Source: Candidatus Tayloriibacteriota bacterium
GTDB lineage: Bacteria; Patescibacteriota; Minisyncoccia; Phycocordibacterales; SIBU01
Length of the DNA: 35,211 nt
Assembly: GCA_016188455.1 (NCBI GenBank)
Contig: JACPHR010000029.1
Location: 1 to 35,211 of the forward strand
Direction of reading: 5' to 3'
Each line of letters starts with the position of its first letter. Position 1 is the stretch's first letter. The notes under the pieces were generated by a model. It was not told the origin of the DNA. It saw only the letters and a list, made by a program, of their open reading frames with translations, and searched no databases. Both the position numbers and the translations under genes were made by a program. Of the stretch, positions 5,107 through 34,589 are shown in pieces.

Positions 5107-5124
5107 CTTATTCGCGCGAATGGT
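5107..5124. repeat. ArsR-A flanking palindrome, downstream copy: CTTATTCGCGCGAATGGT
   Basis: Exact inverted copy at 5457-5474; core ATTCGCGCGAAT is a perfect palindrome. Confidence 0.85.
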
Positions 5125-5175: not shown

Positions 5176-5445
5176 TTACAACAAACGAAGCACGTAATCC
5201 GTAATCCGGTGCGGCGAAGAAGACAGGCTGTACCACATTTGAAGGCTTCGCTGTTCACGTTCTACCAATTCGGCGGCATACAAAACTGCCAAGTGTTTGG
5301 ATGTGGCTTTGAAAGACAAACGCAAAATCTCGGCGAGTTCACCTACCGTCCCCTCTGAATGCTTTTTAAGATACGAAAGAATGGCGAGCCTGCGCCGATT
5401 CCCTATTGCCTTAAGAACTCTTTCAAATTTTCTAAAATCATTCAT
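5176..5445 (-). CDS. ArsR-family winged-helix transcriptional regulator (paralog A)
   Basis: MNDFRKFERVLKAIGNRRRLAILSYLKKHSEGTVGELAEILRLSFKATSKHLAVLYAAELVEREQRSLQMWYSL; homologous along its length to 33204-33464. Confidence 0.85.
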   Translation of the reverse strand: MNDFRKFERVLKAIGNRRRLAILSYLKKHSEGTVGELAEILRLSFKATSKHLAVLYAAELVEREQRSLQMWYSLSSSPHRITDYVLRLL

Positions 5446-5456
5446 TCTTTTATTGT

Positions 5457-5474
5457 ACCATTCGCGCGAATAAG
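5457..5474. promoter_or_regulatory. ArsR-A flanking palindrome, upstream copy (candidate operator)
   Basis: ACCATTCGCGCGAATAAG, 11 nt upstream of the ArsR-A start; inverted copy of 5107-5124. Confidence 0.7.
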
Positions 5475-32725: not shown

Positions 32726-33014
32726 GTCTCCTCCTATATCAATGTTCTCCTATATTATATCTCAAGGTGCGTCAAAAAGCTACGCCTATACTAGCACGGG
32801 ACGCGCTGAAAAAAAAGAAAACGCTCTCTGTGCGGTTCAAGAAGTGGTTCAACGAGATGATCCGTAACCACGGTCAAGAGATTCCGAATCGGCCAAACCG
32901 CAAGGTGTTCATCCTGCACGACAAAAAAGTCCGGGAAAATCCTTCTCCTGCATACGCGGCGCTTCGCGCCGCGCGGGAAAAATTTGCTTCTTCTGACACA
33001 AGTTTTATTCGGGC

Positions 33015-33084
33015 TGCGGGTCAGGGACTCGAACCCCAATACTCGCCTCCAAAGGGCGATGTCCTACCATTAGACGAACCCGCA
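33015..33084 (-). tRNA. tRNA-Gln (anticodon TTG)
   Basis: TGCGGGTTCGTCTAATGGTAGGACATCGCCCTTTGGAGGCGAGTATTGGGGTTCGAGTCCCTGACCCGCA: 7-bp acceptor, TCGCC-CTTTGGA-GGCGA anticodon arm, GGTTCGAGTCC T-arm; CCA not encoded. Confidence 0.95.
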
Positions 33085-33147
33085 ATGTCGATTGCCAACA
33101 TAATTTACAGCAAAAACCGGATTTTCACAACCGATCGCTCATTCATT

Positions 33148-33173
33148 CGGCTAATTCGTGCGAACTAGCCGAG
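33148..33173. repeat. ArsR-B flanking palindrome, downstream copy
   Basis: CGGCTAATTCGTGCGAACTAGCCGAG; direct repeat of 33490-33523. Confidence 0.9.
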
Positions 33174-33203
33174 ATGGAATTTTGTTTTGAAAAAATTTGG
33201 GCG

Positions 33204-33464
33204 TCACAAAAGCGAAAGTATGTGGTCAAGAGTTGGATGCCTTTTAGAACTTAGGCGATAGTGCATTTCGACCGAACGTTGTTCTTTTTCCAAAAGCCCC
33301 GCCGCGTACATAACACTGAGATGCCGAGAGGTGGAGCGGAAAGAAAGCTTTATTGCTTCAGCTAATTCCCAAACTGACGCTTCTTTGCGCTTTTTCAAAA
33401 ATTGGACGATGGCAAGCCTCCGCTTGTTCGCCAGGGATTTCAGAGTTTGCTCAAGTTCTTTCAC
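33204..33464 (-). CDS. ArsR-family winged-helix transcriptional regulator (paralog B)
   Basis: MKELEQTLKSLANKRRLAIVQFLKKRKEASVWELAEAIKLSFRSTSRHLSVMYAAGLLEKEQRSVEMHYRLSSKRHPTLDHILSLL. Confidence 0.87.
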   Translation of the reverse strand: MKELEQTLKSLANKRRLAIVQFLKKRKEASVWELAEAIKLSFRSTSRHLSVMYAAGLLEKEQRSVEMHYRLSSKRHPTLDHILSLL

Positions 33465-33489
33465 AAAAATTATTGTTTTCTTTTTTGTA

Positions 33490-33523
33490 AATCTCGGCTA
33501 ATTCGTGCGAACTAGCCGAGATT
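33490..33523. promoter_or_regulatory. ArsR-B flanking palindrome, upstream copy (candidate operator)
   Basis: AATCTCGGCTA-ATTCGTGCGAAC-TAGCCGAGATT, 11-bp perfect arms, 25 nt upstream of the ArsR-B start. Confidence 0.75.
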
Positions 33524-33548
33524 AATTATAACATAAACATCCGCCTTA

Positions 33549-34589
33549 TCAAGATGCACTTTGGTGAAATAATTTCATGAGCGCAAGTTCAACGGGAAGC
33601 GCGGGGATGTAGGCGCGGCCGACAGAGTTGTAGGCCGCCAAGAGTTCTGAGAGAAGAGCCGAAGAAATGCCGGAATCTTTCGCGCCGGCCAAATTTTTCA
33701 AAAATTGAAAATCTTCCGGCGAAAGCTCATTGGCGATTTCTTTCTCCATCTCCTTGGCGTAGCGCAGAAGCAGAATGAAGCGCAGTTTTTGCAGAACCAG
33801 CTCCAAAAAAACTTTGGCGTCAACCCCAGCCCCGAGCGCCCCGTGCAAGGCGGCAAGCGCGGGCTCAAACGCCTTGCCCGAAAGCGCTTCAACGAAACCG
33901 TTGACCAGCGAGCCTTTCGGCGCGCCGGTTACCGTTTCCACTTCCGCCAAAGAAATTTTTTTGTCTTCGGAAGCGCTGATGATTTTCTGCAAAATGCCCT
34001 GGGTGTCGCGAAACGACCCGTCGCCGAGAAGGGCTATCAGTTCGGCCGCTCCGGCTTCAAGCGTAAAGCCTTCCTTCTTGGCGATGGCCGCCGCGCTTTG
34101 TTTCAGAATTTCCCGAGTCGGCTTTTTCAGCCGAAAAACCTGACAGCGCGAAATGACGGTTTCCGGTAGCTTGCCAATCTCCGTGGTCGCCAAAATAAAA
34201 ACCACGTGCTTCGGCGGCTCTTCCAAAGTTTTGAGAAGCGCATTGAAAGCCGATTTGGAAAACATGTGCACCTCGTCAAAAATGTAAACCTTGTAGGGAG
34301 ATTCAAAGGGCAGGGCGCTGACCGCTTCATTGAGCACGCGCATTTCGTCCACGGTGTTGTTTGACGCCGCGTCAATTTCGTATGTATCGTTGGCGCTGGC
34401 GCCGATTGACTGAGCCACGATGCGGGCGAGGGTGGTTTTACCGGTGCCGCGCGAGCCGGCAAAAAGATAGGCGTGGAAAATATGCCCGAGCTTAAGCGCT
34501 CCTTCAAGGGTTTTGACGATATGATCCTGGCCGATGACTTCCGAAAAGGCCTTCGGCCGATATTTGCGATATAAAGCGAGCTCTGACAT
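33549..34589 (-). CDS. dnaX: DNA polymerase III gamma/tau subunit, short form
   Basis: MSELALYRKYRPKAFSEVIGQDHIVKTL, GSRGTGKTTLARI, YEIDAASNNTVDEMR, YIFDEVHMFSKSAFNALLKTLEEPP. Confidence 0.95.
   Translation of the reverse strand: MSELALYRKYRPKAFSEVIGQDHIVKTLEGALKLGHIFHAYLFAGSRGTGKTTLARIVAQSIGASANDTYEIDAASNNTVDEMRVLNEAVSALPFESPYKVYIFDEVHMFSKSAFNALLKTLEEPPKHVVFILATTEIGKLPETVISRCQVFRLKKPTREILKQSAAAIAKKEGFTLEAGAAELIALLGDGSFRDTQGILQKIISASEDKKISLAEVETVTGAPKGSLVNGFVEALSGKAFEPALAALHGALGAGVDAKVFLELVLQKLRFILLLRYAKEMEKEIANELSPEDFQFLKNLAGAKDSGISSALLSELLAAYNSVGRAYIPALPVELALMKLFHQSAS

Follow-up and report, generated by a model that had tools for sequence, protein, structure and literature searches.

Why should a small regulator gene lie between two copies of the same palindrome? 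The question arises from a window of 35,211 nucleotides (the whole stretch of DNA analysed here) from a Candidatus Tayloriibacteriota genome of 893 kb in 31 contigs, in which a sequence-only reading had described two ArsR-like genes, A and B, each with a palindromic site on both sides. All of the evidence that we bring to bear on it is sequence, mostly from metagenome assemblies, and the relatives of these ArsR proteins belong nearly all to Patescibacteria.

The two ArsR-like loci of the window

The direct repeats of about 29 bp that had been reported on both sides of ArsR-B proved to be exact: TCGGCTAATTCGTGCGAACTAGCCGAGAT occurs twice and only twice, at 33147-33175 and 33494-33522, one copy on each side of the gene and with zero mismatches. 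In the 700-bp region around B the longest exact repeat is 29 bp, against at most 13 bp across 200 shuffles, and the upstream copy forms the centre of the 34-bp palindrome AATCTCGGCTAATTCGTGCGAACTAGCCGAGATT (Table 1). The only gene between the two palindromes encodes an 86-aa winged-helix protein which, by its ArsR-type domain, is a member of the ArsR/SmtB family of transcription factors: it matches PF01022 in a profile search (1.9e-8) and NCBIfam HTH_metalloreg (62.6 bits, cut-off 55), and its AlphaFold model (pLDDT 92.5) has the ArsR fold, with CadC, HlyU, PagR and NolR as fold matches in the PDB. The metal- or thiol-sensing cysteines of the metalloregulatory subgroup are missing in B, and among 86 relatives 78 have no cysteine and none has two or more.

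Table 1. Coordinates of the two ArsR-like genes, their flanking sites and the promoter of B.
Feature	Position	Strand	Remarks
Paralog A, ArsR-like	5176-5445	-	89 aa from internal ATG; PF01022 1.1e-10; 52% identical to B
Upstream site of A, ACCATTCGCGCGAATAAG	5457-5474	none	From sequence and repeats
Downstream site of A, CTTATTCGCGCGAATGGT	5107-5124	none	Inverse of the upstream site of A
ArsR-like winged-helix protein B gene	33204-33464	-	86 aa; GTG start; no Cys
Upstream palindrome of B, AATCTCGGCTAATTCGTGCGAACTAGCCGAGATT	33490-33523	none	34 bp, imperfect; putative operator, from the repeats and family-wide covariation with the recognition helix
Downstream palindrome copy of B	33147-33175	none	29 bp identical, direct orientation; 26-bp palindrome at 33147-33172
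Probable sigma-70 promoter of B, TTGATA-16-TATAAT	33525-33552	-	11/12; extended -10

ArsR-B has dnaX (33549-34589, minus strand) upstream and a tRNA-Gln gene (33011-33085, minus strand) downstream. The upstream palindrome lies right next to an 11/12 sigma-70 promoter, whose -10 element stops just 1 bp ahead of it, and this points to B repressing its own synthesis; among the upstream sites examined, -10 elements follow in 49 of 83, a moderate enrichment over 36 ± 4. We considered an RNA element at B and rejected it: Rfam gave the tRNA-Gln only, a terminator-like site is absent there, and palindrome centres are conserved as TTCGNNCGAA, where the loop would be too short for the centre-adjacent G/C pairs to form in RNA, so that recognition as DNA is likelier. 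A phage origin was also set aside, as viral contigs yielded zero relatives.

The second claim, of a core common to A and B, held as well. The pattern TTCGNGCGAA has six strand-wise matches in the window, which together are the four A and B sites, where 1.1 matches would be expected and 0 of 100 shuffles reach six. Within the sites of A, ATTCGCGCGAAT is found at 5110-5121 and 5460-5471; these sites are asymmetric, 18 bp long and mutually inverted, and those of B are direct repeats.

Palindrome-bracketed units in the genome and the phylum

Is the arrangement peculiar to these two genes? Our genome-wide statements rest on pattern searches with TTCGNGCGAA and CTAATTCNNNNGAATTAG, profile searches with PF01022 and PF12840 and selected stretches, and by these means at least nine palindrome-bracketed ArsR units were found, with palindromes of two types. 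Six units are of type 1 (A, B, one on contig C14, two on C20 and one on C29), and three are of type 2 (C4, C8 and C27), with more distant ArsR proteins and the palindrome cores TTCTTGAGAA or TTCCTAGGAA. The expectation that ArsR genes of the genome would come with paired sites held for nine units and not for the ArsR genes on C23 and C21, whose proteins are both less related. An ArsR gene at C23:12840 (L021) has a single perfect 38-bp palindrome, upstream only (ACACATCAACTTTTCACTATAGTGAAAAGTTGATGTGT), and in the second C20 unit the downstream site is split at its centre by another palindromic repeat (CGCCTGCC...GGCAGGCG; C20:27270-27330, L008). The proposal that A and B are a duplicated and diverged pair fared less well: the two are 52% identical, B clusters with units from other genomes and not with A, in a tree that is poorly resolved, and an orthologue of A stands beside trmD in a genus mate, which leaves duplication a weak account of this particular pair and no more than one part of the picture.

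The bracketing extends to other genomes. Among 80 homologous loci from other, public Patescibacteria genomes the core lies on both sides in 71 and on at least one side in all 80, against a background of 0.04 per 450 bp in the same contigs. The consensus is asymmetric and alike for upstream and downstream sites (TATTCTCTAATTCGCGCGAATAGGCGAATAG); where the loci are asymmetric (n = 47) the copies point in the same direction in 37 and are inverted in 4, and the centre-to-centre spacing of paired sites is conserved, with a median of 330 bp. In a separate sample of 192 genomes of the phylum, drawn independently, only six contained a unit protein; the close homologues outside the source genome were bracketed in 4 of 4 cases, and two distant homologues lay between palindromes of another pair, AGTCGNNCGACT, so that the layout outlasts the sequence. 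A general Patescibacteria repeat was rejected because the extended site, in a phylum-wide pattern count, proved rare in all but a few genomes.

Does the protein read the palindromes between which it is encoded? We calculated mutual information between the bases of the sites and those columns of the 86-residue protein that vary, separately for upstream and downstream sites, and for both the top three columns are 43, 44 and 47, which sit on the recognition helix (42-54) predicted by the AlphaFold model; the wing residues 65/66 also rank high. Residue 43 follows base pair ±11, residue 44 the centre and +7, and residue 47 positions 6, 7 and 10. When the set was thinned to 40 loci of less than 62% identity, columns 47, 44 and 43 ranked first, second and third for the downstream sites, and for the upstream sites 44 came out on top, with 47 in third and 43 in sixth place. 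The two sites of a unit have the base at -11 in common in 75% of loci versus 38% when shuffled, the shuffles removing shared ancestry only in part. Within a unit site the arms complement each other and change together as far out as ±18 bp from its centre, beyond the consensus. Such a concentration on DNA-reading residues, found twice, is difficult to obtain by descent alone, and the peak at 43, 44 and 47 for both sites suggests that the protein very probably binds both palindromes of its own unit. With nine units in the genome, dozens in Patescibacteria and covariation at both sites, the idea of a self-contained regulator with a site on each side is borne out.

Unit boundaries and solo palindromes

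Alignments between units stop at the outer palindrome edges (the downstream end lies -1.5 bp, IQR -1.5 to 1.5, from centre+16), and in 337 pairs of homologous loci with aligning units the flanks are homologous in 6 and not in 331, although ends at operator edges would also be expected from conserved operators in diverging intergenic DNA. The neighbour genes are nearly all unrelated between loci, which rules against an operator of a conserved neighbour, except for dnaX (5 of 86 loci) and GIY-YIG genes (4 of 86); the downstream neighbour is convergent with the unit in 22 of 86. Where dnaX is the upstream neighbour (L073, L078, L114, L131 and window 33204-34589) the ArsR proteins do not form one clade, and the position may be either a shared old one or an insertion hot spot. 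The GIY-YIG genes, encoding small nucleases, lie directly 3' of the unit (L075, L102, L143, L149). Downstream of dnaX, where the source genome has ArsR-B, the genus mate G003 has a different gene (MFTKGKLKEETIALRRKGLSYSEILKQI..., L173), for an HTH protein of homing-endonuclease-like appearance, and then a tRNA; the dnaX-tRNA gap thus receives different insertions.

Comparison within the genus shows the units both present and absent. A type 2 unit lies between murC and rsmI in G002 and G003, and G001 is without it, murC and rsmI being only a few bases apart; the A unit beside trmD is common to the source genome and G003, and the B unit beside dnaX and the trpS unit are missing in G003. At the C14 locus the source genome has palindrome, arsR and palindrome, in G003 a single palindrome (CTATTCTCTTATTCGTGCGAATAAGAGAATAG) stands without the gene, and in G002 both are missing, so that unit and solo palindrome are alternative states of one place. 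On these comparisons the ArsR unit appears to behave as a discrete insertable module, the mobility of which we infer; movement would be infrequent, given that the murC-rsmI and trmD units are syntenic across the genus. The module encodes no transposase, sequence comparison revealed no excision product, and the intergenic DNA of the genus mates is too diverged for a target-site duplication to show at the unit ends.

How often, then, do the palindromes occur without the gene? About half of the type-1 sites in the genome are dispersed solos. Sites mostly without an adjacent ArsR gene had been named as a ground for refuting the unit, which stands nonetheless, and the solos add a mobile or relic dimension that had not been proposed. 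Each solo most resembles one or two of the units resident in the genome, and the one at C23:8569 is identical to a C14 site over 32 bp. Several lie in frame within genes, as inserts of 32-44 bp that encode FSNSRELEN and SANSRELAD in dus and tgt, and HSNILENVGM and variants in iscS, pheT and tsaD; such palindromes explain odd peptide inserts (FSNSRELEN, HSNILENVGM) in conserved proteins. The iscS and pheT palindromes are found at the same codons in G003, where the core is ATGTTCTGCAGAA versus ACATTCTTGAGAA here, changed alike in both genes, and those of tgt, tsaD and dus occupy a variable stretch and are missing from the genus mates compared.

Possible explanations and known systems

The explanation that we favour, and hold with moderate confidence, is a compact module of palindrome, promoter, arsR-like gene and palindrome, which, as the comparisons show, comes and goes as a whole in Patescibacteria, with the palindromes as its bounds, and whose ends would be bound by its own protein. 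To judge from the covariation, the ArsR-type protein would recognise the palindromes at both ends; as the upstream one overlaps or adjoins the promoter, the protein would repress its own synthesis, and the downstream one, which has no consistent promoter, may best be taken for the module's second end. Lone palindromes, which keep DNA specificity matching that of the genome's own proteins, could result from loss of the gene between the copies or from palindromes spreading alone. As the module has no recombinase, movement would require a trans-acting or host activity, and the module would work like a REP-RAYT unit with a self-limiting repressor in place of the transposase. We can put forward only tentatively the larger proposal of a class of minimal mobile element, the sole product of which would be a repressor that binds both ends, limits itself and helps its palindromes to spread, even in frame into housekeeping genes, with a specificity that changes together with all palindromes of the genome and so gives rise to separate, non-interfering families in one cell. 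If true, there would be a palindrome-bracketed element with a repressor and not a transposase at its heart, in a phylum about whose mobile DNA little is known. The units would also be a natural record of transcription-factor/operator co-evolution, comprising dozens of protein-site pairs with two internal copies each.

Need the unit move at all? A stationary autoregulator with two operators, the dimers of which loop the gene of about 330 bp, or the downstream operator of which stops read-through, would account for the covariation with both sites, for the conserved spacing, for the synteny of some units within the genus and for the promoter adjoining the B palindrome, and the solos would be its regulon sites. 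We nevertheless consider it rather unlikely, because neighbour genes are hardly ever common between loci, G003 has a single palindrome at the orthologous place, presence in the phylum is patchy (6 of 192 genomes) and solos lie within the coding sequences of dus, tgt, tsaD, iscS and pheT, far from promoters. ArsR/SmtB and SdpR-type autorepressors (CadC, CzrA, HlyU, PagR, NolR) resemble the unit in fold, in family and in a palindrome, in B a putative operator, at the own promoter, but the unit differs in its second, downstream operator copy, in the absence of a linked target gene and in the near-constant absence of cysteine.

Alternatively, the palindromes could be ends mobilised in trans by a recombinase of the Y1/RAYT or another type, with ArsR as merely the commonest cargo. 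The genome does have four Y1_Tnp genes, at least three with palindromes nearby, one type-1 pair flanks a RelE-like toxin ORF, and the prevalence of the same asymmetric orientation at both sites (37 versus 4) would be expected of single-strand hairpin ends. That the ArsR units and the Y1 transposases use the same palindromes was, however, rejected, as those of the RAYT-like Y1_Tnp genes L203, L204 and L205 (G000 C19, C14 and C18) are their own and differ in sequence (AGGTTGAACCT, AAGGAGACTCCTT, AGGTCAGACCT), and the covariation makes the ArsR protein more than mere cargo; this explanation seems to us improbable. From the Y1_Tnp genes with palindromes of their own it would seem that REP-RAYT-like units exist in Patescibacteria.

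The favoured module does resemble RAYT-REP systems, in which one gene is bracketed by its own palindromes, with dispersed solos, as an insertion-sequence-like unit (PMC2817692): both have the bracketed gene, the solos and a palindrome kept by complementary changes. What the ArsR gene encodes, however, is no Y1 HUH transposase but a winged-helix repressor, its palindromes are mostly direct and not inverted, they number tens and not hundreds, and a GTAG-type head was not seen in the consensus. The Rickettsia palindromic elements, found in frame within conserved coding genes of a reduced genome (PMC10969869), are comparable to the in-frame inserts in dus, tgt, tsaD, iscS and pheT, which are shorter (32-44 bp versus about 150 bp, the Rickettsia families being compared by description and not by sequence identity) and are linked to an encoded DNA-binding protein of matching specificity. 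A repressor as the element's gene is not described for REP-RAYT (PMC2817692) or the Rickettsia elements (PMC10969869), and we found no description of a palindrome-bracketed ArsR element in the literature searched.

A chromosome-organising or partition-like role, with an ArsR-like protein acting on dispersed palindromes as on the AspA centromere or on sites of the nucleoid-associated kind, and with nucleation at the flanking pair, recalls AspA, the centromere-binding protein of plasmid pNOB8 and a small winged-helix relative in sequence and fold, and would suit the iscS and pheT sites, which genus mates retain at identical codons with cores changing in concert, but it is very improbable given several paralogs of differing specificity in one genome with few sites each, a phylum mostly without the system and units lost with no obvious replacement. 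AspA, which presumably binds a palindromic site close to its own gene, differs in belonging to a partition operon, and we know of no bracketed unit or in-gene solos for it.

The two type-1 palindromes around the RelE-like ORF (85 aa) lie in G000 at C8:17242-17719 (L007 1043-1520), and an apparent truncated antitoxin reading frame precedes the ORF; these may be the ends of the unit around a different cargo, or else solos that are near each other by chance.
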